A DNA stretch of 64,000 nucleotides from Antiquaquibacter oligotrophicus. GTDB taxonomy: Bacteria > Actinomycetota > Actinomycetes > Actinomycetales > Microbacteriaceae. Under the pieces are notes generated by a model, which saw nothing but the letters and a program-made list of their open reading frames with translations, was not told where the DNA came from and made no database searches. This document shows positions 11,104-43,474 of this stretch, piece by piece; positions within the stretch are counted from its first letter, which is position 1; every line of letters starts with the position of its first letter. The translations under genes and the position numbers were made by a program. The stretch covers positions 434,001 through 498,000 of the forward strand of contig NZ_CP085036.1 of assembly GCF_020535405.1 (NCBI RefSeq), in the 5' to 3' direction.

Positions 11104-13895
11104 TTACACAGCCCGGCCAGCCCCCGGGTCGATGGGGAGACGAATACGCCCGATGGTGTTATCGGCTCGGTACTCCCACGCCATCGTCGATCCGACGGGA
11201 AGCGGTGGAGGCACGGTGCGCAGACGCGTCACCATTCGAACGTCGGAGAGCGAGCATCCGTCGAGCACAACGTGCATGGTCGAACGCAGCGACGATAAGA
11301 GCCCCCAGTGCGATTGCCACTCGTCGAGGTCGGCGACGATCGCCGACGAGCTGCTCGTCTCGGTGGTCGACACCGCCGCAATACCCTCCACCCGCCATCC
11401 CGTACGCGCGAGTTCCGCGGCTAGATAGTCGGCCCGCGTCGAGGCCACTGCGAGCGAGCGACCGGGCTGCGGCACGGCCACGACCGGTTCGCGGCCGGTG
11501 TCGCGCACCTGCGCGAAGTGTGCCACCTGGATACGTGTGTCGCCCCTGAAACCCCACCCGGGGTGAGGACGTGCCGCAAAGGACTCACTCCTTCCACCCG
11601 CCAGCACCCAGTCCTGGCGCGAGGATGCCCAAGGAGGATCGTCGACGGGAAGAGAGCAGCAAGCGCGAGTGACTCGCCCTGGAGCCGCACCGCGCTCGCA
11701 GCAACCATGAACCCCCCACCCGGCCCTTCGCGCAGGATGCGGGTCAGCGAGTCCAGCCACGCGACACGGTGCTCACCGGAGAAACGCGACAGGATCGCAT
11801 CCAGGTCATCGATGATCAGGATGCCCGGCTCCAGCCGATCAGTGTCGAGCCGATCCGCGGCCTCCGCAACGACATCCCACGCCCGCGGCGGGTCGGGCGG
11901 AACACGGATGCCCGGAATGCCTGCCAACGTGGTGCTCTTGCCACTGCGCGGGCCTCCGATGACGAGAAGGTTCCCGTCGGCGCTCGGATCCCACCCGAAA
12001 GTCTCTTGCCGCTGGACCTCGGGGATATCCGCGGCGCCCAGAGCGATGCCTCCCTCGATTCGCGCGAGCGTTGATGGCGCAATGTCACGTGGGAGCGGAT
12101 CCAACCACGGTCGCCGTGGACGCGCCGCTCGGGCCCAGCGCTTCCGCACCACGTCGGCGTCGGCCGCATCGGCGAGTCCGACCTGGAGTGTTTCCGTGTC
12201 TGCACCTGCCCGGCGGACCACGACGCGACCGCGGCTCGCGGCGCTCAACTCCGACGCCTCGGATGTTCCGACGACGGCATGACTATCGGCGGCATTGTTG
12301 ACGCGAAGCGAGAGTCGAAGATCGGCATTGGCCAGGAGGGAGTCTTTGACCACTCCGGCGGGGCGCTGAGTGCACAAAATGAGGTGCACGCCGAGCGAGC
12401 GACCGCGTGCCGCGATGTCGGCGAAGAGCGCATGGAGGTCGGGGAACTCGGCGAGCATCGCAGCGAACTCGTCGGCCACGATCACGAGGCGCGGCATCGA
12501 CACGTCCTCGATGCCCCGAGCTCCGGTCACGGCCAATCGAGTTTCCCGGTAGCGCAATTCGGCCCGGAGGCTCGCCAGCGCCCGCTCCGCTTCGTGCTCG
12601 TCGAGGTCGTTGATCGTCCCGACGACATGCGGGAGCGAGGCCAGCGGGGCGAATGCAGATCCACCCTTGAAGTCGATGAGAAGAAAAGAGACTCGCTCCG
12701 GGGAATGCTCTGCCGCCATGGCGATGACCCAGGCGATGAGCAGTTCGCTCTTGCCACTCCCCGTTGTTCCGGCCACCACGGCGTGTGGACCTTCGGCGAC
12801 CAGATCGAGTGACACGGGGCCGCTCGGACCGACAACGGGTGTGCACGGAAGCCCCGGTGCCGCCTCGTCCGCGACAGGGCGAAGGAGCGAACCTAGCGTC
12901 ACGCTGTGCGGCAGTGCGGCTCCGATCTCCGCGACGGCCCTGGGGTCGTCGCGAAGGCGCGAGACCCAGGCCTCCGCCTCCCGTTGCGAGACGAAGGCGA
13001 GCCGGAGCGACACGCGGGCATCCGGCTCAGGATGCTGGACAACACGTGCCTCGTGCGGCCCCGTCACGACAACGATGCGGCACGTCGGCGGAATCTCCGC
13101 CTCCGATCCGCCGAGAGCCAGACGGATCACCGGATCAGCGTGACCGTGCTGTCCGAACGTGATGATCGACGCTCCGCCGGTGTCGCTGGCTTCGACGCGA
13201 CGATGCGGAATGAGAGTGAGCCACAGCTCGCTGAGCTCATCGGAACAACTCATCCAGTAGTCCGCCGGTGGAAGAGAGCGAAGCAGCTGCAGCACGAGGC
13301 CGCGATAGACGGCGAGCGCGGTAGGCGCAGGCCCGACAATTCCGATTCCCAAGCGCGGGTCGGCGCCGAAGGGGCCGAGCAGTGTCCGGGCGGAAACCGC
13401 GATGTCAGTGATGTCGTCGCCGCTGCCGGCTGGCGGGGTGACCTCGAGCGAACTGCGGATGTCCGCTTCCCCGAGGACGACAACGAGAGCGCGTGTATCC
13501 GCGTGCCACAGTCCTCTGTCGTGCCGGCGCGACAGGATGGCCGGACCGTCGGGCCAGGCGTCCAAGAGCGCATCGCGCTCGCGCGAATGGGCGCGGACGA
13601 TGTGTGCGCGTGCCTCGAGCATCTCGCGGTCGAACCTGGCCCGCTCGCGCGCGGCCCCGCGTCGACCGCCCCACCATTGGTCTCCAACGCTCGCGAGCGC
13701 TGTCACGGGGCCGAGTGCGGCGAAGCCGAGAGCGAAGAGTGACCCCGTGATCAGCCAGAGCGCCACCGAGACGACCACGGGTGCCAGTACCGCGAGCACG
13801 GGAAAGCGCCACGGCGTGGCGGGGGCGACCGGTGTGGGCAGAACGAGTCGGTTGTCTAACACGGCCGCAGTCTGCCGCCTCGCGCGGCCCGACAT
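11104..13895 (-). CDS. EccC/EssC-like FtsK/SpoIIIE ATPase, interrupted by a -1 frameshift near 11628
   Basis: Two open frames make one protein. Frame 1 runs from 13895 to about 11628 (756 residues); the protein-like continuation lies in the -1 frame to the TAA at 11104 (174 residues), about 930 in all. Two N-terminal membrane segments (residues 31-70). ATPase domain 1: Walker A GTTGSGKSE (376-384), LLIDFKGGSAFAPL, Walker B LVIVADEF (470-477), and RGRSLGVHLILCTQRP, as in type VII secretion motors. Domain 2: Walker A GGPRSGKST (647-655) and GILIIDDLD. After the shift the text reads ASSRQDWVLAGG...RIQVAHF, in keeping with the end of such a domain. A GTG at 13862 is an alternative start. No WXG100, EccB, EccD or EccE gene is in the window. 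It is the last gene of the minus-strand module. Confidence 0.78.
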
Positions 13896-13952
13896 CCGGT
13901 GACTGAGCGGAGCTGTGCAGAACTAGCCGTCCACAACGCAGGGAGGTGGCGG

Positions 13953-15002
13953 TCAGCTCACGATGAAGAACTGCTCACCGATCTCCACGCGCGTGCCTCG
14001 CGCGATGCGGTAACGCTTGCCGGGTTCGCAGCGGCGTGCTGGCCGCTCGGGCTCTCGAACGATCGTGCCGTTGCCGGAGTAGCGATCGCTCACCCAGAAG
14101 GCACCGCCCTCCCGCCCGAATTCGAGGTGTGTCTTGGATACGGACTTGCCGGGATCCGAGATCGCCACGATCGTGTCCATGTGTTCGCCGGGTTCGGGGG
14201 TCGGATTACGACCCAGCAGCCCGGTTCCCGTGACACTCACACTCTCGCCCGTACTGAACTGCAGGATGAATCGGTCGCCACCCGCGCCCGGCGCCACGAT
14301 TCTGGTCTGCTCGAGGTCCTCATCAAGTCGCAGCACAGCATCGACGGGCGTTGCGGCCGCGTGCCGTCCGTCCGTCGACCGGGCGATCGGCTCGGGCACG
14401 CCCGGCTCAGGCACGACCGGCTCAGGCACGACCGGCTCAGGCGCGACCGGCTCGGGCGCACTGTCGGTCACGACGAGCGGGTCATCACTCCACGGGAACG
14501 GCTCGATGATCTCGGTGTCACGCGGAAGAGCACTGCCACCGACGCGAACGAGACCGCACTCGCCGCAGAAGATATCCGTCTCGGAGAGTGCTGCTCCGCA
14601 TTGCGCGCATGTCAAGCCGTGCTCACCCGGTGCGTCTTCTCGAGATGCGGGTGGGGCGGTGGGCGCGTGGACGATGGGCTCCGGCTGGGATGGCGGAGGC
14701 GGCGGAGTGGCCTCGGGCGGGGCTACCGGAGCGGGAGGCGTGGTGGCAACGGGAGGGGTCGGATTCTGGTCAACCACAGCGGGCGGGAGGTCGGCGAGGA
14801 AGTCCTCGCGCACCGCCGGATGCTGAGCCTCCGGCACCACGAGGTCCTCGACGACGAGCTCCTGGAGGGACCAGGGCGCGAGGGCGGGCTCTTCCGCCGC
14901 CGGTGCGGGCGTAGCCGCGTCGCGCACGGCGACGGCTCGACCACATTCGCCGCAAAACATGGCTCCGACCGGCAAATGGGTTCCGCAGTAGGAACAGGTC
15001 AC
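13953..15002 (-). CDS. Double zinc-ribbon and FHA-domain protein
   Basis: 349 residues, GTG start. Two CxxC...CxxC zinc ribbons (C3/C6/C17/C20 and C132/C135/C146/C149) flank a Pro/Ala-rich linker. A second linker carries an imperfect five-residue Pro-Glu-Pro repeat (about 184-205). The C-terminal ~100 residues are an FHA domain that binds phosphothreonine: GLLGRNP, KSVSKTHLEF and SDRYSGNGTIV hold the Arg, Ser-x-x-His and Asn landmarks. A candidate phospho-site, EQTRIV (T233), lies just before it. Cytoplasmic. Placed between the transglutaminase-like gene and the EccC-like ATPase, it may link kinase signalling to that motor. Confidence 0.85.
   Translation of the reverse strand: MTCSYCGTHLPVGAMFCGECGRAVAVRDAATPAPAAEEPALAPWSLQELVVEDLVVPEAQHPAVREDFLADLPPAVVDQNPTPPVATTPPAPVAPPEATPPPPPSQPEPIVHAPTAPPASREDAPGEHGLTCAQCGAALSETDIFCGECGLVRVGGSALPRDTEIIEPFPWSDDPLVVTDSAPEPVAPEPVVPEPVVPEPGVPEPIARSTDGRHAAATPVDAVLRLDEDLEQTRIVAPGAGGDRFILQFSTGESVSVTGTGLLGRNPTPEPGEHMDTIVAISDPGKSVSKTHLEFGREGGAFWVSDRYSGNGTIVREPERPARRCEPGKRYRIARGTRVEIGEQFFIVS
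14388..14453 (-). repeat. 15-bp imperfect tandem repeat coding for a Val-Pro-Glu-Pro linker
   Basis: About four copies of a 15-bp unit (GGCTCAGGCACGACC on the + strand) inside the zinc-ribbon/FHA gene encode APEP/VPEP/VPEP/VPEP. Such in-frame units easily change copy number and here set linker length. Confidence 0.7.
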
Positions 15003-15012
15003 GGTCGTCCTT

Positions 15013-17295
15013 CTATCGGGAAAAAATCCTGGTCACACTATAGCCACCGAGGGAGCGCAGGGAGACGCGAGCCTTCAGCCGCTGCCAACGGGTCAGGCCT
15101 GAGTCCAGAGTGCCACGCAGGTCGTCGACCGCACGCCATACGACGTCGGCATCCTCCGCTGTCGGTTCGTCCGGAGAGAACGTCGCCCTGTCCGCGACCG
15201 CGGCGAGGACCTGTGCCCCGACAACCCCGGTTACCCCTGCGACCTCGCTTCGGGTGCTCGAGGGTGCAGTCGAGACGCCGTGGTCGAGCACGGCATCCTC
15301 GAACTCGCGCCATCCTCCCGCGACGCGATCGGCGGGGAGCGTAGCGCGTCGTCGCAGACGGCGACGTCGGGCTTTCGCAACGATGATGACGAGGAAGGGC
15401 GAGATGAGGATCGCAAGCGCAAGCAGGACCCAGCCGAGCACCGTTGCGATCGCCAAGAGCACTCCCCAGAGCGGGTTGAGGTCAGGGGGAAGCTCTTGCT
15501 CGCTGTCGGGCGTCTCCTGGCGATCGGGTTGCTCGGTGTCGACGACCGGCGGGGGAACGATCGTCGGGGGGCGCGACACCTGCGCGTTGTCCTCCGGGAG
15601 TTCTTCGGGAATGTCGCGGTAGGGCGGAGTGACATCGAGGGCCACCCAGCCGTACTGAGCGGTATCGACCTCCACATAGGCGACGACGTCACCGCCTCGC
15701 ACGACACCATCCTGAGGGACGAAACCGAGCACCACACGAGAGGGGAAGCCGAGCTCTCGCGCCATGAGCGCGGCGGTCGCGGCGTACTGTTCGCCGTCGC
15801 CGATCATCCGAGGCGCCGACAGGAGTTCGGTGAGACGATCGGACCCGTGTCCAGATCGGCTGGGAGGCTCGTCGTCGGTTACGCCGTGGCTGATATAGCC
15901 GTTGACGGCCAAGCCATCCAGCATGGCGGCCAGTTGTGCGCCGGGACCGTCCACTCCCGACACGTATTCCTCGAGAACGGTCACGAGTTCCTCGGGCACA
16001 CCTGTCGCCTCCGGCACCACTGCGGACCCCGGTTCGAGATCTGAGATGTCCGAGAGTGCCGGCGATGGCGGCACGACCGAGTCGAGCTGGTAGCGATCTC
16101 CAGAGCTCAGGCCGCGCAGATCTGCCGCGGTGCCCGTGGTGTCGTTGTAGAAGAACGCTCCCCGGAGGTCTGCACCGTCAGGCCCCTCGAAGTCGATGGA
16201 TCGCAGCTTTCCCACGGTAGGCACCCACACACCCGAGTACTGGTCGATCTCAATCGACGTCGACGTGTCGACCCCCTCGAGTCCAGACTGGTCGAACGTG
16301 GACGGCACACGTACGAAGGCACCGGATTCGCTGGTCACCGCAGCGCTTCCGACGGCAAAAACGACGCCGTCGTAGGTGTCGAGCGTTGCCAGCCGCACCA
16401 ACTCCCCGTCCTGTCCGCTGACACGGAAGAGCACCGAATCGACCGTGTCTTCTTGCCAATAGCTTCGAAACGCGGAGAGCGGGCTGACGTAGTCGCGCGG
16501 ATCGAAAGGCTGTTCCACGGCGGTGCGAAGCACGGTACGCGCCGTCGTCGGAGCGAGAGCCGACGCCGCTCCGACTCCCGCGCCTGCAGCAAGGACGAGC
16601 AGAACGAGGCCGCCGGCGAGTGCTCGGAAACCGGCGGCGTCTCGGGTCGGATGCTCGTCCGTCTCGCGAGCGAGGGCCGCCGTAGCTGCACGACGACGCC
16701 CCTGCCGAAAGCCGATGAGAGCGAGTGCGACGGCGGTCAGAAGAGCGATGGGGAGGATGACACTGGCGGCCCGATCATCCGGCCCGAAGGCGACGGCGAC
16801 GATGTACACGATGACGGCAGGGAGCACGGATGCTTCCGGAACACGCGTTCTCGTCGCGATCGAAACGCCGATCACGACCGAGAGGAGCACGAGGAGAAAA
16901 GCGGGAACCAGGAGCGCCTCGTAGTCGCCGACGGGAAGCGTGACGGTGAGGAGCTGCTTCCACCCGAGTGCGACGCCGGCGAGGAGATCGAGGATTCCCT
17001 CGGGAGTGGGAAAAATCCCGTTGAGCGCGCGGGAGGGAACGGCGACCGGCACTCCGACCGCCACAAAATAGAGCGCGGTCAGGATCATGACAACCCATGA
17101 CGGGTGACGGAATCGGGCGCCAAGGCCCGCGACAACGGCACCCCCTACGAGTCCCGCGCCGATCGCCACAAGAATGCCGCGGCTCTCGTAGATGGGCCAC
17201 AGCGCCGCGCCCGCGATGAGGGTGACAAGCCAGACCGCAAGGATCGCGAACACGATCCGCGCCACGGGAACCCGCTCGCGCGACGGCGCCTTCAC
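15013..17295 (-). CDS. Transglutaminase-like membrane protein, catalytic Cys and His replaced
   Basis: 760 residues, GTG start overlapping the DUF58 stop. About five or six N-terminal membrane segments (residues 11-245), an extracytoplasmic part (250-600), another membrane segment (about 606-636) and a cytoplasmic tail; this is the TgpA-like layout. The transglutaminase core is recognisable: GDGEQYAATAALMARELGFP aligns with the usual G-Y-C-E-x-F-A block, but the Cys position is Gly501. The usual His before the second strand is Val538 (VVAYVEVDT), while the third Asp is kept (VALDVTPP, D554). It therefore looks like a pseudoenzyme with a structural or binding role. Such genes commonly accompany MoxR and DUF58. 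Confidence 0.82.
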   Translation of the reverse strand: MKAPSRERVPVARIVFAILAVWLVTLIAGAALWPIYESRGILVAIGAGLVGGAVVAGLGARFRHPSWVVMILTALYFVAVGVPVAVPSRALNGIFPTPEGILDLLAGVALGWKQLLTVTLPVGDYEALLVPAFLLVLLSVVIGVSIATRTRVPEASVLPAVIVYIVAVAFGPDDRAASVILPIALLTAVALALIGFRQGRRRAATAALARETDEHPTRDAAGFRALAGGLVLLVLAAGAGVGAASALAPTTARTVLRTAVEQPFDPRDYVSPLSAFRSYWQEDTVDSVLFRVSGQDGELVRLATLDTYDGVVFAVGSAAVTSESGAFVRVPSTFDQSGLEGVDTSTSIEIDQYSGVWVPTVGKLRSIDFEGPDGADLRGAFFYNDTTGTAADLRGLSSGDRYQLDSVVPPSPALSDISDLEPGSAVVPEATGVPEELVTVLEEYVSGVDGPGAQLAAMLDGLAVNGYISHGVTDDEPPSRSGHGSDRLTELLSAPRMIGDGEQYAATAALMARELGFPSRVVLGFVPQDGVVRGGDVVAYVEVDTAQYGWVALDVTPPYRDIPEELPEDNAQVSRPPTIVPPPVVDTEQPDRQETPDSEQELPPDLNPLWGVLLAIATVLGWVLLALAILISPFLVIIVAKARRRRLRRRATLPADRVAGGWREFEDAVLDHGVSTAPSSTRSEVAGVTGVVGAQVLAAVADRATFSPDEPTAEDADVVWRAVDDLRGTLDSGLTRWQRLKARVSLRSLGGYSVTRIFSR

Positions 17296-18728
17296 TCTGC
17301 CGCCGATCGCGACAGGGCCTTCTGAAGGTCTTCGAGGTAGCCGATGGTGAGGACACTGAGGCCTGGCACCCTTCGCAGACCGGGCGGCTCATCCGGGTTA
17401 CAGACGACGGCCACAACATCGACATCGGGCGGGAAGAGAGTGGACGCCGCGCGCAGTTCACTGGGGCTCACACCCGAACCGCACACGAGGAAGGCCACGG
17501 AGACGCCGACGGTCCGATCGCCGGTCACGCGCGCAATGTCGTGCATTCCGAGCGCCGACTCGGAGAGTTCGACTCCCGCGAGATCATCGAGAAGCCTCGA
17601 TCGCGACAGCGACGACAACTCGCGCACAGCGTAGAGCTTTCTCTTCGCAAACTGAGGTGTCTCGACACCCGTCACGACCGTGATGGTGCGCGCATCCCGA
17701 ATGGCGCGAGCCCCGAGCGATCCCGCGACACTCACAGCGAGTTCGAACTCGTCTGGCGACCCGTAGTCCGCGTCGGCAACACTCAGCGCGACAACGAGGT
17801 GGCTGCGCCTGGTCTCCTCGAACTGCCGCACCATGTAGGTGCCGGTTTTTGCCGTCGACTTCCAGTGGATGTTGCGGCGCTCATCCCCCGGGACGTACTC
17901 GCGGATGGCATGGAAGGCGACATCGTTGGCCGCCAGGTCGCGCGTGGGGTTTCCCTCGAGATCTCGGATGAGTCCGGTGCTCATGCTGGGAATACCCACG
18001 GTGCGCGGATGAATGTACAGCTGTGCGACGTCCGCCCACACGACATCTCGGCGCACGATGCCGATCGGGTCCGCGCGAACTGTCCGCACGGGTCCGACGG
18101 TGATGATGCCGCGACGCGAGCTCGGAACAACAAACTCTCGAGTGGACTCCGCTCCTCCGGCGAGGCCGGGAAGGGCGAGTTCCACCACACCGGGACCGAC
18201 GGGGACCTCGACGGTGGTGCCGATCGCCCGTCGGCGCGATGGATTGCGCACATCGATCTCGCCGATCGCTCGCTCCCCGACCACCACCCGCGAACGCGGA
18301 ATGCGAACAGACAGCCGCATCGGCGACCGTCCGATCAGGTAGACGACCGCGAGGGACACGAGTGTGACGAGTGCCCATCCGAGCACAACGAACTCGACGA
18401 TCCCCCAGACGTACCCGGCGATCAGTGCGGCCGGTGCAAGCACGATCAGGGTCCATCCGACGGGCGAGATAACGTCGGCGACGCGACCGAACACCCGCGA
18501 GGTGACCTTGCGAATGGCTCGACCAATCCTGACAACCCCGATGACAAGGTCTGCAAGGAATCCGGTACGGTCACCGACGATCTTCGTTCGAGCGTTCGTC
18601 AGTCCCCGCGTACCCGTACTGAAGTGACTGTCGAATCTGGACGAGGTTGCATCCCGGGCACGCGTGGACTGCCGCGTCGATGACGCAGCCGTCTTCGACG
18701 CGGCAGAGCCGCCAACCGTTCGTGCCAC
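17292..18728 (-). CDS. DUF58-domain membrane protein
   Basis: 478 residues, GTG start one base after the MoxR stop. Two adjacent membrane segments at about 92-132 (VGWTLIVLAPAALIAGYVWG and VLGWALVTLVSLAVVYL). The DUF58 hallmark FHAIREYVPGDERRNIHWKS is followed by MVRQFEETR and a vWA-like fold, LVVALSVADADYGSPDEFE. DUF58 proteins almost always travel with MoxR ATPases, which are thought to remodel them; the exact job is unknown. The Ser/Thr-rich first 50 residues are probably disordered. Confidence 0.88.
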   Translation of the reverse strand: MARTVGGSAASKTAASSTRQSTRARDATSSRFDSHFSTGTRGLTNARTKIVGDRTGFLADLVIGVVRIGRAIRKVTSRVFGRVADVISPVGWTLIVLAPAALIAGYVWGIVEFVVLGWALVTLVSLAVVYLIGRSPMRLSVRIPRSRVVVGERAIGEIDVRNPSRRRAIGTTVEVPVGPGVVELALPGLAGGAESTREFVVPSSRRGIITVGPVRTVRADPIGIVRRDVVWADVAQLYIHPRTVGIPSMSTGLIRDLEGNPTRDLAANDVAFHAIREYVPGDERRNIHWKSTAKTGTYMVRQFEETRRSHLVVALSVADADYGSPDEFELAVSVAGSLGARAIRDARTITVVTGVETPQFAKRKLYAVRELSSLSRSRLLDDLAGVELSESALGMHDIARVTGDRTVGVSVAFLVCGSGVSPSELRAASTLFPPDVDVVAVVCNPDEPPGLRRVPGLSVLTIGYLEDLQKALSRSAAE

Positions 18729-19703: not shown

Positions 19704-19727
19704 AGCTTTCTCCTGGTGGTGATCGGG

Positions 19728-22700
19728 TCAGTCATAGTCGAATCCGTTGTAACTCGCGTCGTAGGTCCCACCCGCGACAAGCACACGAATCGTGAGGTAC
19801 GGGGTCTCCCCCGCCGCGGCCTCGAATCGGCAGGATGCCCCCGCGATCGAGATACTCGTAAAACTACCCGCGCCCGGACTGGAACCGCACGCGACTTGCA
19901 CGTCGTCGTAGCTTCCGGTCGGCCATCCGGTGAAGGCGAAGTTACCGGTGGGCGCCTCAGATGAAGGGTCATCCCAGGTGTACGTGATGCCACTCGCGCC
20001 CGCATTGACGGGGACACCCATGGTCTGAGAGGCGGAGGGAACGTCCTGACACAGCTCCTGTCCCGAGTACACCCGGCACGCGACGGCGGTGATCGCCACA
20101 GACGTTCCGTACTGCAGAGGGTCGGCCTCGATGAACGACCCGATCGTGATCGGCCCCTTCAGCGTGCCGCCATTGAGCCTGTAGTACACACGGAAATCGC
20201 TCGTGAGCGCCGTCGAGCCCATCTGCCCGCCCGTGAGAACAAAGTCGAACAATGTTCCCGTGCGCGCGGTGGGACCGCTCCAGGTGAGGTTGGTGATCAC
20301 ACCCGGTTTGGTCTGCGCACGAACTGCCGGGCTCGCGGTACAGCCCTGGCTGTTCACCGCGAAAACGATGAACGAATACTCGGCGTTGGCGTTCAATCCG
20401 CCGAACGATGTCGAGGTGCCCGTGCCGACTGAATTCACGGTGGCACCGCCGGCGTTGATCGTGCCGTCCGGGGCGCACGTTGGGGCGGAATCGGTGTATG
20501 CCGCTGCGTGATACGCGGTGATCGGTCGGCCGTTGTCGCTGAACACACCCGCCCACGTGAGAGCGATCTCGGTGTCGCTCGTCACGGAGGCGAGCGGGCT
20601 TCCCCCTGCCACGGGCGGACCAGCTGGGGTTCCCGTGACCGACGAGGAATTCCACGCGGCGAGAGGACTGTAGGCGTCGTTGCGGGCGCTAACGGTCGCC
20701 GTGACGGCAGATCCGTTGGTCAGGGACGCGTCGTAGATGTCCGCCGAGCACCGCGCGGTCGAGCATCCGGCCGTCGTACTCACTCCCCCGACCGTGACGA
20801 GATAACCCGACACCGGCGATGCGCCGGCGGGCATTGCTACGCGATCCCACGACACACGCAGCCCGCGGTTGAGGGGCTCGGCGCTCAGACTCGTGGGTGC
20901 TGCGGGGATGACATCGGACCAGATGTTCTCGAGGAGCGACACGGGATCGGACGCACCGATCGCGTTCACCGCCGAGACAGACACGCGCACGGCGTTGCCC
21001 GGCCCGTTTCCGGGAGTCGAGATCGTGCAGGTTGTTGTCGGGCACGTCGTAACCCCGAGAGGAGCACCGCCCGCTGACTGGATTGTGACCCGGTATTCGG
21101 TGATGGGCGAATTGTTGAACTGGCCCGCGTTCCAGCGCAGAGTGATGCTGCGATCGCCGAACGACGTCGGGGCAACGTTCGTCACCGGATCTGGACGGTC
21201 CTGCACGGATGCGGTGATCGTTCCCCACGCAAAACGAGTCGGATCGTTGGTCGCATCAGCTACCTGGTACTGGAAACTCACGTCCGCAGGCGCGGCGGAG
21301 GGCGCGACGCTGACGACGAGGGTCGAATTGTCCGAGCTCGGGCGCACGGACAACCCCGCGGGAAGCGTGCTGCCATCGAGGCCGCGAATCTGGACGACAC
21401 GCAACGGCACCGAGGGGAAGGGATTTGTGGCGCGGTCGTTGGCGAGCACATCGATTGTGGTGGTTTCGCCACGGCGCACAACAGCGCTGTCGGGCGCAGG
21501 GCGCACAAGCGGTCTCGTCGAGGCAACAACCCGCACATCGACCCGACCCGACTTGCCCTCGCTCAGATCGTCGCGAACGCCGATACCGAACGATCCGGTC
21601 GACCCCTTGACCGCGTTGGCACCAGCGATGATGGTCAGCTGCGTTCCGCTGAGTGAAGCCGTGAATCCTGTCGGCTGTGTTCCCACGATCGAGTAGGCGA
21701 GCTCGGTGAGGTCATCGGGGTACGGGTAATTTGTGAGCCGGAGCAGATCGATGACCTTCTCTTGCCCCGGTTCGAACTCGAGCGACGCGCCCGTGAACAC
21801 CGGCGGCTGGTTATCTCTCGGCAGCACGGTGATCGGCAGCACGAGGGTCGCGGTTCGACCATCAGGGTCGGTCGCGCTCGTCCCGTCGGTCACCTCGAAG
21901 GAAATGGATGCCGGGCCGAAGTACTTCTCGGCCGAGGTGAACTCGAGTGTGTCAGAGTCCACGACGAGATCGTCGCCGTTGGCGTGGGTCGCCTGCACGG
22001 AGCTCGAATCGGTGAGCCTGACCTGTTTGCCCCCGACAGCGATGACGTAGTCATTGATGTCGATGCGCAGGGTCGACTCGCTGTTGACCCGTAACGCCGG
22101 TGCACGAGTATCGAGTTGCGGAAGGGCATCCTCGAACCCCGGAACACGAATGAAGGCGTAACTGAACACCTCGGGGTCCTCGGGATGGGTGACCCGGAAC
22201 GGGATGATTTGGCGCCGCTCATCGATGGTCACCTCCACGAGCTTGGTGTCGAGGACACGCGCCGACCCCTCGAAGCCCGGGTAGATGCTCAGCCCCAGCG
22301 AGCGCGGATCACCGTCGGCGAAAAACACTTGCGAGAGAACATCGACCATGACGGTGTCGCGATCAAGCACATCCGAGAGCGTCAATACCGTGTCCGAAGC
22401 GACGGGATAGGCGAGCGGGGCATCCTCGGCCACCCGCACTCGGATGAAGTTCTGGCTCGTACCGCCAAGTTCGTTTTCGATGCTGTAGATGACGCCGTAC
22501 GTGCCCTCCTGACGCGGCGGTGTCACGCGAACGACGTCTCCCACAACCTGGGCGATGGTCTCGGGGTCGTTGGGTTCCGCCGAGACCACACGCAGGGGAC
22601 TACCGTCTGGGTCGGAGTCGTTGGCGAGCACCTGCACGGAGACGGTGAAGCCGGGGCGCACGGTCACCTCGTCGACGATAGCGACCGGGTTACGCGCGCC

Positions 22701-25601
22701 ATCGAGGCGTGGGCTGATGCCGACCCTGATGGTGCCGGTGGCCCTGGCGCCCAAGGCGTCGATGACCGCGTAGGTGAAGACGTCGGTGCCGGCGGAGTAC
22801 TCCCCCGCCTCATAAACGAGCGACTCGGCATCCGCGGAGACGACCGTTCCCTTGTCTGGATTGCTGGACTGACCCAAGAGCTGCACGGAGTCGCCGTCCG
22901 GGTCGGTCCCGGTGAGCGGAATGCGGATGCTCACACTCTCGCCGGCGAGGACGCGCGCCGTGACGGTGGGTGGCACGGGAGGGTTGTTGGTCGCGGCATC
23001 CTCTTCTCGAACCGCGATGCGAACCGTTGCGGTCGCGAGTTGCCCGTCCGGCCCTGACACCGAGTAGGCCGCCGTGAAGTTACCCGGTGTCTCGGGTGCG
23101 AGATAACGCAATACGTTGCCCGACGCGAAGAGCAATCCGCCGTCCTCTGGCACGTCCTGCGCAAGTTCGGGTTCGAGGGTGAGAGCGAGGCCATCCGGAT
23201 GCTCGTCGTTGCTGAGAACGGGGATGTCGATGGCATCCCCGACCCTGACCGTCGCGGAGTCCTCTTCGGCGATGGGTGGCTGGATTCGAGCCGGTGCGGG
23301 GATCTCGACGACGGTGATGACACCCTCGGCTTCGGCGAGACCGTTGCTTATTCGATAGTTGAAGGCAACCGGCCCCGAATCCAAGGGGGATTCCAGGCTC
23401 ACTCGCACAAGTCGCTGCTCGAGGATCTCGGCCCGTACTCCCGATCCTTCGGGGAGGTTCATGATCCCCGTGACGAGGAGAACGCCTCCGGCCGGGTCGA
23501 CATCGGTACCTGCGACGTCGATTCTCTCGTTGCGCAGGGTCTGAACAAAAACGGTTTTGGGGATCGTGATGGGCCGCGTACTCGTCGTCGGCGAGACCAC
23601 ATCGACACGAACGACCCCGTTGGCGGTCTGTGTGCCGTCGGTGACGACAAAGTCGACGTAGTGGGTGCGGATCTCGGTACTGACGAAGCGGAATGTGCCC
23701 GTTTCGTAGCTTGGGGTGACGGTAAAGCCAGAGCGTGCCGGAACACTGCCGAGGCGGATCGTTCCGGATCCGCCCGTGACGTGATCGAGCGGAGCCACCG
23801 TGAGTTCCTCGCCAGCGATGGCCGTCACGACAAACGGCCGCGCAGTGAGAGGCACCTCTCCGCGCGGGAGCACCGCAACCGTGAGCGCGCCCGTGCCCTG
23901 AGCCAAACCGTCCGAGACGACGAGCGCCACGGTCTTGGCCCCTGAGGCCTCCCCTCCGTCGGAGAAGACGACCGTGCCCTGAGGCTTGTATGCGACGCTG
24001 TCAGGCGCGGGGATGCTCGCGTCCACGAGGTAGAACGGGTCGCCGTCGGGGTCGACCCAGTCCCCCAGCACCTCGGTCGCCACGCGGCCGCCCACCTCGA
24101 CGGTGGCGCTGGTTGATCGCACTTGAATCGGCGGAGAGTTTTCCTCTGGCGACCTCACCGTCACGGTGACATTGGCGGAGGCCACTCCTCCGCGGCCATC
24201 GGAGATCGAGTAGCCGAACGTCACGGTTCCGCTCGCTCCGGGAGAGAGGGTCAGTTGAATCTGCTGACGCTCTGTGATGAGGTCGGCGCGCCCGATCGAC
24301 TCGTCGATCGGTGTTACCTCGTCGATGACGAGCACGTCACCGTTGGCGTCGTAGTCGTTGAGCAGTACGGGAAGGACAGTGGCTCGACCCGGTCGCGCCC
24401 CGAACTCGTCGTCGACAGCGACGGGAGGTTGCTGAACCTTCTCGACCTCGGTGGGAACGTTCTCGTCCGTGAGTTCCTCGTCTGGCTGCTCGTCGTCGGG
24501 AACGATGAGGTCGTCCCAATTGTCGATCAGCTGACCATCGCGCTGAATTGCCCACGAATCGCCCGATCGCGAATCGTTGAGCACCGCACGCGAACCGTTG
24601 GCGACAAACGCGAGCGCCGCCGTCGACGGCATCGAATCGAGTTCGATAGTCGCACCGGCATCCGTCCCGCAACGCCGCCACGATTGGCCGGATGTCCACG
24701 CCGCGTATTCACAGTCCCCGATCGCGAACGGAGGAGCAGCAACACCGGATGTGTCGCCGGTGATCTCAACGGGAGCCCCACCGTCGAACGGCACCCCGAC
24801 GAGCCCACCGGAGTGGGCGAGGAGGAATCGATCACCGACAGAACTCGGAGCCTGAATCCGCGCGCCTGCCGCCGAGGGAACGAATTCGCTCAGATCGATC
24901 GAGCCCTGCTCCGTCGTCACCGTTCTGGACGCCGAGTTCCACAGGGCCCAGCGGTCGGCGACCGAGGTCAGCGTCAGGGAGCCTGGCACCGCCTCCACCT
25001 GTACGGACCCCACGGTCTGAGCGACCTCCGATGAGCTCGCCTCGAGTCGGTACAGGGCGCCGGTTGCGGCGGCCCAACCGAATAGCGTTCCGTCCGGTTC
25101 GACGGTGACAAGAGCATCGGGGCCGAGTTCTAGGACGGCCGGGGCCTGCGAATCGAATCCGGCAACATCGTCAACGGGTACGACCCAGACACGACCCGAC
25201 CCCGCCTCGAAGATGACGGTGTTTGGTCCCGCTGTCCACACTTCCGGGCGCTCAGGTGGGAGCACAACGCTGTCGACGGATTCCGACGTAGCAGGGTCGA
25301 TAACCTCGAGGCGCGCCTCCGATCGATCCACGAGCAGCACGGAGGAGCCATCCTGGACGACCGAGAGGTCGCTTCCGGTCGTGGGGACAACCGAGTTCAG
25401 TTCGAGGATTTCGGTATTCGCACGACCGATTGCCTGCTGGGCATTGTTTGGCACCCAGACGGACCCGTCACCCAGGTCGAATCGTTGAGCCGTGTAGCCC
25501 GTCGACACGATGGCCACACCCGCGATGAGTGCAGCGATGACCGTCCCGCTCGCGACACTCGCTGTCAGCGATCGGTGAGAAGAGAACCATTGCCTGATCA
25601 C
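19728..25601 (-). CDS. Giant anchored Ig-like / fibronectin type III surface protein
   Basis: About 1,957 residues from the GTG at 25601 (MIRQWFSSHRSL); a GTG at 25631 is an alternative that would overlap the kinase. A short basic cytoplasmic end is followed by a signal-anchor (about 14-36). Residues ~40-370 look beta-propeller-like (LLVDRSEARLEVIDPAT, short repeated strands). An acidic linker leads into tandem Ig/cadherin-like domains (about 395-1470) with recurring 'pvAvdD...VLxNDxDPDG' units, e.g. VQVLANDSDPDGSPLRV. The rest (about 1470-1957) is FN3-like: SITLRWNAGQFNNSPITEYR, LRVSWDRV, EIALTWAGV. No LPxTG signal or C-terminal helix, so it should hang outside on its N-terminal anchor. Follows the kinase gene directly. 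Matches the 'fn3' gene of the bifidobacterial PFNA cluster in context. Confidence 0.85.
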   Translation of the reverse strand: MIRQWFSSHRSLTASVASGTVIAALIAGVAIVSTGYTAQRFDLGDGSVWVPNNAQQAIGRANTEILELNSVVPTTGSDLSVVQDGSSVLLVDRSEARLEVIDPATSESVDSVVLPPERPEVWTAGPNTVIFEAGSGRVWVVPVDDVAGFDSQAPAVLELGPDALVTVEPDGTLFGWAAATGALYRLEASSSEVAQTVGSVQVEAVPGSLTLTSVADRWALWNSASRTVTTEQGSIDLSEFVPSAAGARIQAPSSVGDRFLLAHSGGLVGVPFDGGAPVEITGDTSGVAAPPFAIGDCEYAAWTSGQSWRRCGTDAGATIELDSMPSTAALAFVANGSRAVLNDSRSGDSWAIQRDGQLIDNWDDLIVPDDEQPDEELTDENVPTEVEKVQQPPVAVDDEFGARPGRATVLPVLLNDYDANGDVLVIDEVTPIDESIGRADLITERQQIQLTLSPGASGTVTFGYSISDGRGGVASANVTVTVRSPEENSPPIQVRSTSATVEVGGRVATEVLGDWVDPDGDPFYLVDASIPAPDSVAYKPQGTVVFSDGGEASGAKTVALVVSDGLAQGTGALTVAVLPRGEVPLTARPFVVTAIAGEELTVAPLDHVTGGSGTIRLGSVPARSGFTVTPSYETGTFRFVSTEIRTHYVDFVVTDGTQTANGVVRVDVVSPTTSTRPITIPKTVFVQTLRNERIDVAGTDVDPAGGVLLVTGIMNLPEGSGVRAEILEQRLVRVSLESPLDSGPVAFNYRISNGLAEAEGVITVVEIPAPARIQPPIAEEDSATVRVGDAIDIPVLSNDEHPDGLALTLEPELAQDVPEDGGLLFASGNVLRYLAPETPGNFTAAYSVSGPDGQLATATVRIAVREEDAATNNPPVPPTVTARVLAGESVSIRIPLTGTDPDGDSVQLLGQSSNPDKGTVVSADAESLVYEAGEYSAGTDVFTYAVIDALGARATGTIRVGISPRLDGARNPVAIVDEVTVRPGFTVSVQVLANDSDPDGSPLRVVSAEPNDPETIAQVVGDVVRVTPPRQEGTYGVIYSIENELGGTSQNFIRVRVAEDAPLAYPVASDTVLTLSDVLDRDTVMVDVLSQVFFADGDPRSLGLSIYPGFEGSARVLDTKLVEVTIDERRQIIPFRVTHPEDPEVFSYAFIRVPGFEDALPQLDTRAPALRVNSESTLRIDINDYVIAVGGKQVRLTDSSSVQATHANGDDLVVDSDTLEFTSAEKYFGPASISFEVTDGTSATDPDGRTATLVLPITVLPRDNQPPVFTGASLEFEPGQEKVIDLLRLTNYPYPDDLTELAYSIVGTQPTGFTASLSGTQLTIIAGANAVKGSTGSFGIGVRDDLSEGKSGRVDVRVVASTRPLVRPAPDSAVVRRGETTTIDVLANDRATNPFPSVPLRVVQIRGLDGSTLPAGLSVRPSSDNSTLVVSVAPSAAPADVSFQYQVADATNDPTRFAWGTITASVQDRPDPVTNVAPTSFGDRSITLRWNAGQFNNSPITEYRVTIQSAGGAPLGVTTCPTTTCTISTPGNGPGNAVRVSVSAVNAIGASDPVSLLENIWSDVIPAAPTSLSAEPLNRGLRVSWDRVAMPAGASPVSGYLVTVGGVSTTAGCSTARCSADIYDASLTNGSAVTATVSARNDAYSPLAAWNSSSVTGTPAGPPVAGGSPLASVTSDTEIALTWAGVFSDNGRPITAYHAAAYTDSAPTCAPDGTINAGGATVNSVGTGTSTSFGGLNANAEYSFIVFAVNSQGCTASPAVRAQTKPGVITNLTWSGPTARTGTLFDFVLTGGQMGSTALTSDFRVYYRLNGGTLKGPITIGSFIEADPLQYGTSVAITAVACRVYSGQELCQDVPSASQTMGVPVNAGASGITYTWDDPSSEAPTGNFAFTGWPTGSYDDVQVACGSSPGAGSFTSISIAGASCRFEAAAGETPYLTIRVLVAGGTYDASYNGFDYD

Positions 25602-25611
25602 GGAGCACCCA

Positions 25612-27033
25612 CTATTCCGGCACGTCCGCACACTTTTGAGCGCTCGGGGGACCTACTCTGCCCGCGCTGTTGACGGCGACGGTGATACACACGCGATCGC
25701 CCGGCTCTGCTGCCACAACAAAGGTGCTTGTCCTCTGCTGCACCGGCGGGGCCGAATCCGCCGAAACCTGGAACGTATCGGCGGATCCGATGCCCGGATC
25801 TGACCAGGAGAATTCGACGGTGTCACCCTCGACGCGCGCCTCGATGTCCGATACAGCCAAGGTGCCGGTTCCCGCCGACTGAACGAGGATGACCGTCGCG
25901 AACACACCGAGCCCGACAACGAGCGCGGCGACTCCGACAAGAGCCCACGCGAGCGCCGTCAACCCGCGGCCCGCGACGGGGCGCAAAGAGTTGCCACTCG
26001 GCGCTGCGACGGGGTCTTCCTTGATGATCGTGCCGACGGAACTGAACTCAGTGTCGCCACCGCGACGGCGACGGCGCCGCTGGGCAACCGACGATGGTGT
26101 GGGGTTGCCTCCCTTGATGACCGTGCGGTCTTCGAGATCGGCGACAGTCGAGGACGCCCAATCGTCCACGGCGATCTCGATGGGTGTCTGTGCGACACCC
26201 ATCTCGCTCTCAACGCTCTGCAGTTCGCGCACGAGTTCCATGACGCTCGCCTGTCGGGACTCGGGACGCCTCGACATCGCTCGCGCCAGTGCTCGCTCGA
26301 GCGACGGAGGAACGTCGGGCCTGCCGATGGGCAAGACCTTCGCGCGATTGATCCGAGAGATCAGATCGGCGGATTTATTGGATTGACCGGGAACCTCGAA
26401 CGGGGAGCGTCCGGCCAGAAGCGAATACACCGTGGCTGCGAAGGCCCACACCTCACTCGCGATGGTGCCAGCCGTCTCATCCATGAGCACTTCGGGCGCC
26501 GACCACGGTATCGACATGCCGACGGCTTCCCGCTCACCGGATTCGGCGAGCGTCGCGGCGATTCCGAAGTCCGAGAGAACCGGATGCCCGTAGGCCGTCA
26601 CGAGGATGTTGGACGGCTTGATGTCCCGGTGGAGCACACCGGCGCGATGCGCGGTCTCGATGGCGCTTCCGATTTTGACACCGATCCGCAGCACGTCGGC
26701 CACGGGGAGCCGCTCGCTGCGATAGCGCTGACTGAGCGACGAGGAACACAACTCCATGACGAGATACGGCCGACCGTCGGACGACACCCCAGCCTGGTAC
26801 ACGGTGAGGATCGACGGATGCGCCGACAGCTGCGCCATGAGATTCGCCTCCGCTTGGAACATCTGGCGAACCTGATCGTTGACCACCTCGGCGAGCATGA
26901 CTTTGACGGCGACCTGTCGTCGCGGCATGTTCTGCTCGAAAAGGAACACGTCGGCGAATCCACCGGACCCGAGCACGTGCACGTGCGAGAACCCCGGGAG
27001 GATGGGTGGTTGAGAGGGCAGTCTGCGCGCCAC
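25612..27033 (-). CDS. Transmembrane Ser/Thr protein kinase with FN3-like outer domain
   Basis: 473 residues from the GTG at 27033, chosen because AGGGGG lies five bases upstream and the kinase fold starts soon after. Complete Hanks kinase: LGSGGFADVF, VAVKV (Lys44), catalytic HRDIKPSN (Asp about 136), SDFGIA, and SAPEVL. A basic juxtamembrane segment carries candidate phospho-sites DRTVIK (about 302-307) and SSVGTIIK. One membrane helix (about 359-384). The ~85-residue outer part (VEFSWSDPGIGSADTFQVSA...TVAVNSAGRVGPPSAQ) looks like one FN3 domain rather than the PASTA repeats of PknB. PP2C and FHA genes lie upstream and the giant FN3 gene downstream. Equivalent to pkb2 of the PFNA cluster by context. 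Confidence 0.88.
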   Translation of the reverse strand: MARRLPSQPPILPGFSHVHVLGSGGFADVFLFEQNMPRRQVAVKVMLAEVVNDQVRQMFQAEANLMAQLSAHPSILTVYQAGVSSDGRPYLVMELCSSSLSQRYRSERLPVADVLRIGVKIGSAIETAHRAGVLHRDIKPSNILVTAYGHPVLSDFGIAATLAESGEREAVGMSIPWSAPEVLMDETAGTIASEVWAFAATVYSLLAGRSPFEVPGQSNKSADLISRINRAKVLPIGRPDVPPSLERALARAMSRRPESRQASVMELVRELQSVESEMGVAQTPIEIAVDDWASSTVADLEDRTVIKGGNPTPSSVAQRRRRRRGGDTEFSSVGTIIKEDPVAAPSGNSLRPVAGRGLTALAWALVGVAALVVGLGVFATVILVQSAGTGTLAVSDIEARVEGDTVEFSWSDPGIGSADTFQVSADSAPPVQQRTSTFVVAAEPGDRVCITVAVNSAGRVGPPSAQKCADVPE

Positions 27034-27097
27034 AAACACCCCCTGGACACTCCGGACGACTTCCCTAGTGTAAGTCGCCGTATTCCAGGCGCGGGCC

Positions 27098-27121
27098 TGT
27101 GTCCTCTGAAATGAGGACACA
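27098..27121. other. 9-bp perfect inverted repeat between PP2C and kinase genes
   Basis: TGTGTCCTC and GAGGACACA are separated by TGAAAT. It sits 21 bp after the PP2C stop and about 65 bp before the kinase start. There is no T-tract, so it may be an attenuating hairpin, a processing site, or an operator for a promoter serving the kinase-FN3-MoxR part. Confidence 0.5.
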
Positions 27122-27141
27122 GCAGTCCCCCCACTTCGGGG

Positions 27142-27972
27142 CTAGGGCGACACTTCCGCCCGAGGTTGGGTGTCCTCGAAGTCCGACGGCTCCGGCGCAG
27201 ACAGCACATCAACGACAATCGCCGTGATGTTGTCCCTGCCACCTTCGGCGAGCGCGGCATCGATGAGGGCCCCCGCAGTCTCCTCCGGAGATAGCCCGGC
27301 CGCGAGGTGCAAGCGGATGCGATCCGCGGAGACTTCCTTGGTCAGCCCGTCGGAGCACACGAGCAAGCGCAGGCCCGTTCTGGCGGGAATCATCCAGTAA
27401 TCCGCCATGGGCGGCACACCGAACCCGACCGCGCGTGTGATGACGTTGCTGTCGGGGTGGAACTCGGCGTCCTCGGCAGACAGTGCACCGGACTCGATGA
27501 GTTCCTGCACAACCGAGTGGTCCACGGTGACCTGTGTGAGCTCGTTGCGCTCGAAGGCGTAGACCCGGCTATCGCCGATGTTGAAGACGGCGAAGAATGG
27601 GTCTCCCGATTCGAGGACGAGTACCGCCCCGGTTGCCGTCGTGCCAACGCCGAGAAGACTGTCCGCCGCGATCACCGTAATGTCGTCGGTTGCCGCGGTG
27701 AGGGCTCGCTCAACGTCGGCGAGCGTAGTGAAATCTCCGACGACCGTTTCGGCGAGACGCTCGACAACCGCAGCACTCGCGAGGTCGCCGGCGGAGTGAC
27801 CGCCCATTCCGTCGGCTACAACAAAAGCGGGAGCCTGTGCGAGAAAGCTGTCCTCGTTGGCGGTGCGCCGCTTGCCCGTGTCCGTCGCGGCCGCCCACGA
27901 GAGTGTCACGACGCCGTCCGAGCCGGGAACCGCGACAGTGTGAGCGATCGCGGACGCGCCGATCTCCGTCAC
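27142..27972 (-). CDS. PP2C-type Ser/Thr protein phosphatase
   Basis: 276 residues; its GTG start overlaps the FHA gene stop (GTGA). Metal-binding motifs of bacterial PP2C (PrpC/PstP) are intact: NEDSFLA, VVADGMGGHSAGDLAS, FNIGDSRVYAF, LLVCSDGLTKEV and GGRDNITAIVV. No membrane helix, so it is a soluble phosphatase, unlike membrane-bound mycobacterial PstP. Expected to reverse phosphorylation by the kinase encoded next to it and control the FHA proteins. Confidence 0.92.
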   Translation of the reverse strand: MTEIGASAIAHTVAVPGSDGVVTLSWAAATDTGKRRTANEDSFLAQAPAFVVADGMGGHSAGDLASAAVVERLAETVVGDFTTLADVERALTAATDDITVIAADSLLGVGTTATGAVLVLESGDPFFAVFNIGDSRVYAFERNELTQVTVDHSVVQELIESGALSAEDAEFHPDSNVITRAVGFGVPPMADYWMIPARTGLRLLVCSDGLTKEVSADRIRLHLAAGLSPEETAGALIDAALAEGGRDNITAIVVDVLSAPEPSDFEDTQPRAEVSP

Positions 27973-28559
27973 GCGTGTGCCCCCGTCATTCCCGTGGCAA
28001 CCGGAGTGGGCGCCACTACGTATACGACGATATCGTCTCCGAGGTCGATGCGTGTGCCAGCTGACACGGTGACGGACTCGCGCTGGCGAAGGGTGCGCGG
28101 CACAAGCCCCGGTACGTGGACTACCGTCCCGTTGGTTGATCCGAGATCGGTCACCACGATGGCGCCGCCCACCTGTCTCAGCTCGACGTGGGTGGACGAG
28201 ACCTCTCTTCGGGGAGATTCGACGGTCACCAGTCGCGGTGGCAGTCCCGTGATGATTCTCGGAGCGCGAGGGCGCCGACCGATGAGGCTCGGAACGTCGA
28301 GCGGGATGAGAGCACCCGCTTCGCCGATGCGAATGGCGAAGTGTCGCGAGGATCCGCGCGGGGCGGACGTGAGTTTCGGGGGCGCGGGAGCGTCGGGAGG
28401 CGGCGATTCCTGAGCGGACTGCTGCTGCGGGGGCGCATCTTCCACGGGCTGGCTCGCGGGGCGAGGACCGCGCACGACCGTGTCATCGAGATCGGTGCCA
28501 TCAATGGATGGCGACGTCCCTCGCACACGGATGACCGTGTCGTCGAAGTCCTCGGTCAT
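27969..28559 (-). CDS. FHA-domain protein with N-terminal Thr motifs
   Basis: 196 residues. The N-terminus has two close copies of an acidic Thr motif, DDTVIR (6-11) and DDTVVR (25-30), then a Gln/Pro-rich linker. The FHA domain covers about 72-185 (LIGRRPRAPR, REVSSTHVELR, DLGSTNGTVVHV), with the phosphothreonine-binding Arg, Ser, His and Asn positions present. The arrangement recalls GarA/FhaA-type proteins, where an N-terminal phospho-Thr is bound by the protein's own FHA domain. First gene of the module and 34 bp from the convergent-free upstream aldehyde dehydrogenase gene end; a promoter should lie in that gap or further upstream. Confidence 0.88.
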   Translation of the reverse strand: MTEDFDDTVIRVRGTSPSIDGTDLDDTVVRGPRPASQPVEDAPPQQQSAQESPPPDAPAPPKLTSAPRGSSRHFAIRIGEAGALIPLDVPSLIGRRPRAPRIITGLPPRLVTVESPRREVSSTHVELRQVGGAIVVTDLGSTNGTVVHVPGLVPRTLRQRESVTVSAGTRIDLGDDIVVYVVAPTPVATGMTGAHA

Positions 28560-30027: not shown

Positions 30028-30033
30028 GGCACT

Positions 30034-30039
30034 AACCTA
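30034..30039 (-). promoter_or_regulatory. Candidate -10 element of the aldehyde dehydrogenase gene (leaderless)
   Basis: On the minus strand TAGGTT ends seven bases before the ATG at 30027, which would place transcription start on the start codon. No Shine-Dalgarno is visible. The -35 region is poor, which could suit control by the divergent Lrp-type regulator. Confidence 0.35.
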
Positions 30040-30115
30040 ACGCGCGCGTCGGCCGTGGGCCACCCTCCTGGCTATCGATTTCAGCAGAAAAAGTGCTCGA
30101 CTCGTGCGGAATCGC

Positions 30116-30144
30116 TTGTATGCAGCCTTTCTCGCTGACAGAAT
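30116..30144 (+). promoter_or_regulatory. Candidate promoter of the Lrp-type regulator (leaderless)
   Basis: TTGTAT (30116-30121), a 17-bp spacer and CAGAAT (30139-30144) make a good sigma-70-type promoter. The start point would fall at about 30151, the first base of the ATG, so the mRNA is probably leaderless. The 123-bp divergent region is also the expected binding site of the regulator. Confidence 0.5.
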
Positions 30145-30150
30145 CAAGCC

Positions 30151-30633: not shown

Positions 30634-30663
30634 GTCCCTGACGAAACAGAAAGAACGATAACC

Positions 30664-36799: not shown

Positions 36800-36801
36800 G
36801 A

Positions 36802-38286
<1,485 letters not shown>

Positions 38287-39186: not shown

Positions 39187-39227
39187 GTCTTACTTGCTTT
39201 CCCTTGAGTGTGGTTGCCGGTTGATAA

Positions 39228-40865: not shown

Positions 40866-40898
40866 TGTGGTTGTGCCTTCCGTGGAAAGTGACGGCCG

Positions 40899-42242: not shown

Positions 42243-42269
42243 CCTTGCCTCCTTTGCGGGTACTGAGGC

Positions 42270-43426
<1,157 letters not shown>

Positions 43427-43474
43427 ACACTATCAAGAGATAGCGCCCTGACCCAATCGGGGACGCATTCACTA

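Follow-up and report, generated by a model that had tools for sequence, protein, structure and literature searches.

The window analysed here is a stretch of 64,000 nucleotides from Antiquaquibacter oligotrophicus (NZ_CP085036.1, positions 434,001 to 498,000), whose genome of 2.9 Mb forms a single contig; positions below are coordinates of this 64-kb window unless a locus is named. Nine consecutive genes on its minus strand run from 28559 down to 11421, with overlaps or with intergenic gaps of at most 57 bases. They combine a gene set like that of the bifidobacterial PFNA operon with an ATPase of the EccC/EssC class, here called short EccC, and the kinship of this cluster with operons of type VII secretion systems (T7SS) is the subject of this report. 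A preliminary description of this DNA had given nine tightly spaced minus-strand genes, and open reading frame (ORF) coordinates and Pfam domains bore this out. The extent it had given, 11104 to 28559, held for the gene set, but the EccC-like frame stops at 11421, and only a different frame extends to 11104.

The first gene (27969..28559) encodes an FHA-domain protein of 196 aa (Pfam FHA, 31.9 bits) with the residues GR, SSTH and STNG, which we take to be the phosphothreonine-binding pattern. The second (27142..27972) encodes a PP2C-type Ser/Thr phosphatase of 276 aa, matched by Pfam PP2C_2 and, at 192 bits and under the cut-off, by the Stp1-like model of NCBIfam; inspection of the sequence found DGMGG, GDSR, SDG and DN all present, presumably the motifs of a PP2C phosphatase. 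A membrane Ser/Thr kinase of 502 aa follows (25612..27120; Pfam Pkinase, 134.6 bits), with the kinase domain, a single transmembrane (TM) segment predicted from hydropathy at residues 395-413 and a short outer domain, and with VAVK, HRD and DFG intact. The giant surface protein of 1967 aa (19728..25631) has a hydrophobic N-terminal segment at residues 24-42, seven immunoglobulin (Ig)-like stretches matched by Big_9 and two fn3 domains. It is followed by a MoxR-family AAA+ ATPase of 324 aa (18729..19703; AAA_3, 207.9 bits, and AAA_lid_2), a DUF58 protein of 478 aa with two TM segments predicted from hydropathy (17292..18728), a transglutaminase-fold membrane protein of 760 aa (TG; 15013..17295; TgpA_N and Transglut_core), and a protein of 349 aa with two zinc ribbons and a C-terminal FHA domain (13953..15002; Zn_Ribbon_1, Zn_ribbon_3 and FHA). 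The last gene, short EccC, lies at 11421..13895.

For comparison we used the best 80 of 515 confirmed loci of relatives (the named loci), 79 of them in Microbacteriaceae and one in a genome with no assigned family. The FHA pattern of the zinc-ribbon/FHA protein was kept in all 45 homologs found among the window and these loci. In TG the catalytic Cys and His are lost, and the Cys was found in none of 82 aligned rows (80 with a letter and two with gaps; the rows include duplicates of one gene fetched twice, as with L071 and L140). In another protein with the transglutaminase fold from this genome (L216), the corresponding place, matched by eye, holds a Cys. A fold search with TG led to TgpA, and a search of PDB sequences gave a chance match only. 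An active transglutaminase was thus rejected because both catalytic residues are replaced, a difference from the TgpA transglutaminase of Pseudomonas aeruginosa. Judged from its residues, TG is a TgpA-like pseudo-transglutaminase; the preliminary term "transglutaminase-like" is corrected accordingly. The window encodes a second transglutaminase-fold protein of 262 aa at 59365-60153, with its Cys inside GVCRDY.

The short EccC and its linkage to the cluster

The 824-aa frame of short EccC holds a TM and stalk part, D0, D1 with intact catalytic residues, and D2. Its class was assigned with Pfam and other profiles, ortholog alignment, PDB sequence matches and the fold of a structure model of an intact ortholog, not of the window protein itself. 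The EssC profile scored 240 bits against 53 bits for FtsK. In the ortholog model, one short strand is followed by TM helices, the membrane part is predicted to have the ESX-type TM, stalk and DUF arrangement, and two ATPase domains and a small tail domain come after it. Pfam found no FHA domain on the window ATPase, and FHA sits on the separate protein encoded upstream. The earlier call of an EccC/EssC-type ATPase rather than a DNA-translocating FtsK was thereby upheld by profiles, PDB matches and fold. The D1 tree, made from domains cut with a hidden Markov model (HMM) built from two EccC sequences, agrees, the FtsK of the same genome being very distant in it as the single FtsK and outgroup. 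The D1 catalytic residues do not vary among the 80 named orthologs, including those of 42 loci without TG, so that ATP hydrolysis by short EccC appears to be under selection.

A viral origin was also considered and rejected: a scan of viral contigs for the ATPase gave six pattern matches and zero relatives. Matches in PHROG were to FtsK-like and terminase families. We also noted an EccC-like protein of 575-583 residues in another family (f4; L118:9805-11532 and L119:8803-10554), which forms a separate, well-supported branch of the D1 tree.

Similarity to orthologs stops ~70 residues before the end of the 824-aa frame, and the conserved tail resumes in another frame on the same strand, in the ORF at 11104..11760. 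The shift point lies near 11,6xx, so that the membrane part and both ATPase domains are upstream and in frame. The open frames of the 80 named orthologs have 867-1137 residues. When ten other frames of the window were compared with Pfam, eight had domains, none of them frame-split, and two had no match. The frame change therefore looks isolated among the frames checked, and it may be a mutation or a sequencing error in the assembly.

The preliminary description had suggested examining whether the ATPase gene occurs together with the other genes in relatives. A gene of the cluster, either TG or PP2C, precedes short EccC in all 80 named loci. The preceding gene is TG in 38 of the 80, and the zinc-ribbon/FHA gene is present in 36 of these 38; in the upstream DNA fetched for them, some of it from short contigs, DUF58 was found in 35, MoxR in 33 and the giant in 31. 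At the PP2C-type loci, MoxR, the giant and the kinase were found in none of 42 within the fetched upstream DNA (the contig was short in nine). Among these best-80 loci, the PP2C type accounts for 31 of 32 in Microbacterium, 6 of 16 in Cryobacterium and 1 of 9 in Agromyces. The six Cryobacterium loci have PP2C and the zinc-ribbon/FHA gene beside EccC with no core between, and the other ten have TG.

In a sample of 110 genomes of the family, searched for orthologs at E 1e-70, a threshold that missed at least one linked EccC (G216), 64 had short EccC, and TG lay 0.1-5.2 kb upstream on the same strand in 42 of the 64. The core and the zinc-ribbon/FHA gene were kept with no EccC beside them in L067-L069, and giant, MoxR, DUF58 and TG were found with no EccC within the 12 kb fetched in two further families (f9 and f13; L206-L212 and L215). 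On this comparison of loci, the placement of EccC is non-random, yet EccC and the core from kinase to TG are separable units. The proposed co-occurrence thus stood in that a cluster gene always precedes EccC in the named loci, but not as a fixed association, since EccC and the core are also found apart.

As for the surroundings, an aldehyde dehydrogenase gene (28594-30027) lies directly upstream of the cluster and was left out of the set. Together with a class III aminotransferase gene it adjoins the cluster at 28594-32061, and the two are perhaps a pair of the gamma-aminobutyric acid type, as far as function can be inferred. A gene run at 36530-45189, which from sizes and order we take to be the ATP synthase operon, is also present at PP2C-EccC loci of relatives. 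From such neighbours, the cluster seems to occupy a conserved chromosomal place.

WXG100 genes and the long-EccC operons

The preliminary description had stated that the locus has neither a WXG100 substrate nor an EccB partner, and both statements proved correct. No WXG100 gene was found with a home-made HMM in the window or the 80 named loci. EccB (PF05108) was absent from the whole genome in a search that finds it in two other genomes (G059 and G061). The YukD-type domain, which we take to be a part of EccD, was absent from the genome as well, with a positive control in B. subtilis.

A look for WXG100 elsewhere in the genome, as had been suggested, gave a single Pfam match, a 96-aa gene (C1:892754-893044, equal to L054:6755-7045) beside groEL, the neighbour being recognised by eye. 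A WXG100 match is present in 108 of the 110 family genomes. The groEL-WXG100 pair also stands in a 1.5-Mb genome (G159), and because the ATPase matches of that genome are only FtsK-like or weaker, its groEL-side WXG100 is independent of EccC. The groEL-side gene is accordingly weakened as a candidate substrate. Such lone groEL-side genes (L054:6755-7045 and L222:10432-10719) are possibly a housekeeping WXG100 with no secretion motor.

Operons that do carry WXG100 were found with the same genes as the cluster. Okibacterium sp. HSC-33S16 (G150; L056/L057) has a 1496-residue protein with FHA and FtsK domains, a long EccC, together with two WXG100 genes and a T7SS_signal protein, and the locus then continues with PP2C, FHA, kinase, a 286-aa gene, giant, MoxR, DUF58, TG and a zinc-ribbon/FHA-like gene. 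This long EccC and TG were searched against 149 genomes of the order; 99 genomes matched at E 1e-60, and the best 39 (E <=4.1e-244) were taken as long EccCs. TG lay 0.04-8.7 kb upstream of the long EccC, always on the same strand, in 21 of these 39 genomes, from 8 of 11 families. Three genomes of the window's own family (G150, G221 and G252) have a long EccC and TG in one locus.

For 20 of the 39 long EccCs we fetched the upstream DNA, choosing 15 with TG nearby and five without. All 15 TG-linked regions contain MoxR, DUF58, TG, PP2C and kinase; the giant, FHA and a gene of the 286-aa type (h286) were each found in 14 and a zinc-ribbon/FHA-like gene in ten. MoxR, DUF58, TG, kinase and giant were all absent from the five regions without TG nearby, where PP2C was found in one and a zinc-ribbon/FHA-like match in two. 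WXG100-like genes were detected with the home-made HMM in 16 of 21 regions around long EccCs, a set that includes one locus twice (L055 and L109) and one with a differently branching EccC (L110). This HMM had 12 seeds, mostly from loci then scanned, and one seed (L043) is WhiB-like by eye. With Pfam, WXG100 was above the cut-off in L056 and L102 (two genes each), L103 and L221, and below it in L095, L098, L099 and L100.

Salinibacterium sp. SWN167 (G221; L220/L221), of the window's genus, has both a window-type locus and, on another contig, a second operon with the order PP2C-FHA-kinase-h286-giant-MoxR-DUF58-TG-FHA protein-long EccC-WXG100. Between its two sets, 32% is shared for TG, 38% for DUF58, 59% for MoxR, 33% for the giant (over 1598 positions), 39% for PP2C and 46% for the kinase; six window proteins share 52-79% with its window-type set. 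The gene families of the long-EccC/WXG100 operons (L056/L057, L220/L221 and L074-L088) are common to the window cluster, and the second SWN167 operon has the same order as the window except that FHA and PP2C are swapped. The zinc-ribbon/FHA gene corresponds in position to the N-terminal FHA of long EccC. The long-EccC operons differ in an EccC mostly of 1463-1516 aa with FHA (tested with Pfam in L056 only), in the extra h286 gene and in WXG100 genes downstream. The h286-type gene is a conserved gene of 230-290 residues beside the kinase (L056:14351-15211; L220:8209-8928), has no Pfam family, was not found in the window cluster, and is possibly an extra secretion part.

In a tree of concatenated MoxR, DUF58 and TG from 34 loci, made with a quick method, with SH-aLRT (an approximate likelihood ratio test) as the only support and with midpoint rooting, the window type, with EccC-less cores inside it, falls among T7SS-linked rows, and the T7SS-linked L082 is in the same clade as the window type. 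These WXG100 operons, which share the genes of the cluster and had been missed in the preliminary description, occur within the genus as well as in several further families. They are the best evidence for descent from a T7SS, and the double locus of SWN167 is the most telling.

Comparison with known systems

Like the T7SSa (ESX) systems of mycobacteria, the window has an EccC with the membrane-stalk-D0-ATPase architecture. EccC of T7SSa has three ATPase domains, whereas that of the window has two and a small tail, and the window has no EccB, no YukD-type domain and no WXG100 at the locus. T7SSd, according to the main text of Garrett, Higginson and Palmer 2024 (PMC11217815), comprises the WXG100 protein TsdA, TsdC with FHA and ATPase, the kinase TsdD, TsdH and the Ig-like giant TsdI. 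The cluster resembles it in an EccC/EssC-class ATPase, a membrane kinase, a giant Ig-like envelope protein and a linkage with FHA, but has no WXG100 or ATPase-borne FHA and adds PP2C, MoxR, DUF58 and the pseudo-transglutaminase; that main text contains no mention of MoxR, DUF58, transglutaminase or fibronectin. The published T7SSd was therefore rejected as the exact family on WXG100 and FHA position. The EssC-like ATPases of CoCoNuT defence loci, as described in the text available of PMC11090510, are likewise EssC-class motors outside a standard T7SS; they have WXG100 genes nearby and no TM part, and the window shows the reverse.

The PFNA operon of bifidobacteria consists of pkb2, fn3, aaa-atp, duf58 and tgm, to which some species add prpC, fha and an unknown gene, as given in the text available of PMC8430577. 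The window has the kinase, the Ig/fn3 giant, MoxR, DUF58 and the TgpA-like protein in the same order, with phosphatase and FHA also present, so the PFNA-like module of the preliminary description was recovered. Unlike PFNA, FHA and PP2C come before the kinase, and the zinc-ribbon/FHA gene and short EccC come after TG. FtsK is not mentioned in the main texts of PMC8430577 and PMC6803598, nor EccC in that of PMC6803598. Two loci of another family, in genomes of ~2 Mb (L112 and L113), have the published PFNA order, kinase-giant-MoxR-DUF58-TG-PP2C, with no EccC in the fetched stretch and an FHA-like match on the opposite strand, and are likely bifidobacterial. In one genome of this family, a PFNA core (L114) is followed, ~13 kb past the kinase of the core, by a T7SSd-like locus (L115-L117) with WXG100, a kinase, an Ig-like giant, a 1523-residue ATPase and a small FHA-like protein, and without MoxR, DUF58 or TG. 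The giant of that locus did not match the window giant at E 1e-4.

Among the titles and abstracts searched, with supplements and most subscription papers outside the scope, none joined MoxR, DUF58 or transglutaminase with type VII secretion. In the available texts of PMC5819568, PMC8191103 and PMC11090510, joint mentions of both subjects are incidental, and that of PMC12067865 sets the mycobacterial moxR operon beside PFNA for comparison and mentions neither ESX nor FtsK.

Interpretation and rival explanations

On balance, we think it somewhat more probable than not that the cluster, which has neither WXG100 nor EccB, is a paralog of a type VII-like secretion operon, working as follows. The membrane kinase would sense an outside cue via its small outer domain and phosphorylate threonines on partner proteins. 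The two FHA proteins would bind these phosphothreonines and dock or gate an EccC hexamer, the zinc-ribbon/FHA protein taking the place of the FHA domain built into long EccC, and PP2C would reset the switch. MoxR and DUF58 may have a chaperone role in building the membrane part, with the TgpA-like pseudoenzyme and the Ig-like giant that spans the envelope at its centre, and ATP hydrolysis in D1 of EccC would power transport or assembly through that complex. The direct evidence consists of anatomy, conservation and kinship, from which we infer transport, cargo and complex formation. The phospho-controlled export or assembly module with an EccC-like motor, as proposed in the preliminary description, accordingly stands firmly in its PFNA-like set and the class of its motor, and conditionally in the rest.

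Several points weigh against this reading. It comes with no identified substrate, the tail of the window's own EccC is out of frame, and the ATPase falls short of the curated (equivalog) EccC/EssC cut-offs of NCBIfam. Of the 80 named loci, 42 are of the PP2C type, with the zinc-ribbon/FHA gene in eight of the 42; 22 of the 64 EccC-bearing family genomes have no adjacent TG (one a probable contig split, 21 apart), and up to 15 further family genomes have a high-scoring TG and no EccC at E 1e-70. In the order sample, no TG lies within 25 kb of any of the five long FHA-EccCs from the window's own family. The sister of short EccC is left unresolved in the D1 tree, and in the quick, midpoint-rooted MoxR, DUF58 and TG tree the T7SS-linked rows had mostly been picked for TG beside EccC.

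Another explanation is an envelope sensor and surface adhesion system like bifidobacterial PFNA, with the giant exported by Sec and EccC kept as a leftover or scaffold that pumps no protein. PFNA-order clusters with no EccC beside them (L112 and L113), the core with the zinc-ribbon/FHA gene and no adjacent EccC (L067-L069), the out-of-frame tail, and the reports that bifidobacterial FN3 binds tumour necrosis factor alpha and takes part in adhesion (texts available of PMC8430577 and PMC6803598) all fit it, but the D1 catalytic residues are invariant in every named ortholog, TG-less loci included, so that ATP hydrolysis appears to be selected for, and we consider it rather unlikely. Somewhat less likely still is an operon that houses two systems, an EccC-FHA-PP2C unit alongside a kinase-giant-MoxR-DUF58-TG unit, each with its own job and brought together by their use of a single kinase/phosphatase pair. 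Each half does occur without the other, as at the six Cryobacterium loci where the core does not intervene; against this, WXG100-bearing operons from several families unite these genes, and do so in more than one order.

It is quite improbable that this is an ordinary secretion system for a WXG100 protein encoded elsewhere, here the single gene beside groEL: one such gene exists in this genome and matches are nearly universal in the family genomes sampled, but the groEL-side gene stands also in G159, another genome (G233) has a WXG100 match somewhere in its sequence with a G159-like pattern of ATPase matches, and the window and named loci have none. A DNA translocase or conjugation coupling protein placed here by chance is extremely improbable. 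Profile scores and the ESX-type TM, stalk and DUF part led to its rejection, the distance of the genome's own FtsK in D1 adds a little, and no relaxase or transposase occurs among the annotated genes, the annotation covering part of the window.

Beyond the paralogy with a type VII-like operon, a wider proposal is offered tentatively, as a possibility of somewhat below even probability. This order of actinobacteria may have an undescribed EccC-driven branch of membrane complexes, gated by kinase, PP2C and FHA, in which a TgpA-like pseudoenzyme is combined with the chaperone pair of MoxR and DUF58 and with an Ig-like giant that spans the envelope. Its WXG100-bearing form would fall outside the published c-j scheme as a T7SS subtype of its own, the form in the window would have lost WXG100 and would move or assemble something else, and bifidobacterial PFNA would have lost the motor.

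The cluster joins PFNA, investigated so far as a surface system that binds cytokines, and type VII secretion, which were handled apart in the papers examined. It is also a natural example of an EccC that keeps its catalytic residues invariant while its locus encodes no WXG100, and is therefore relevant to what EccC itself requires for pumping. If a T7SS-type complex is the origin of the PFNA proteins, or includes them, then the FN3/Ig giant, DUF58 and the "transglutaminase" would become candidates for structural parts of a secretion system, with roles open to testing, rather than a receptor and an enzyme.

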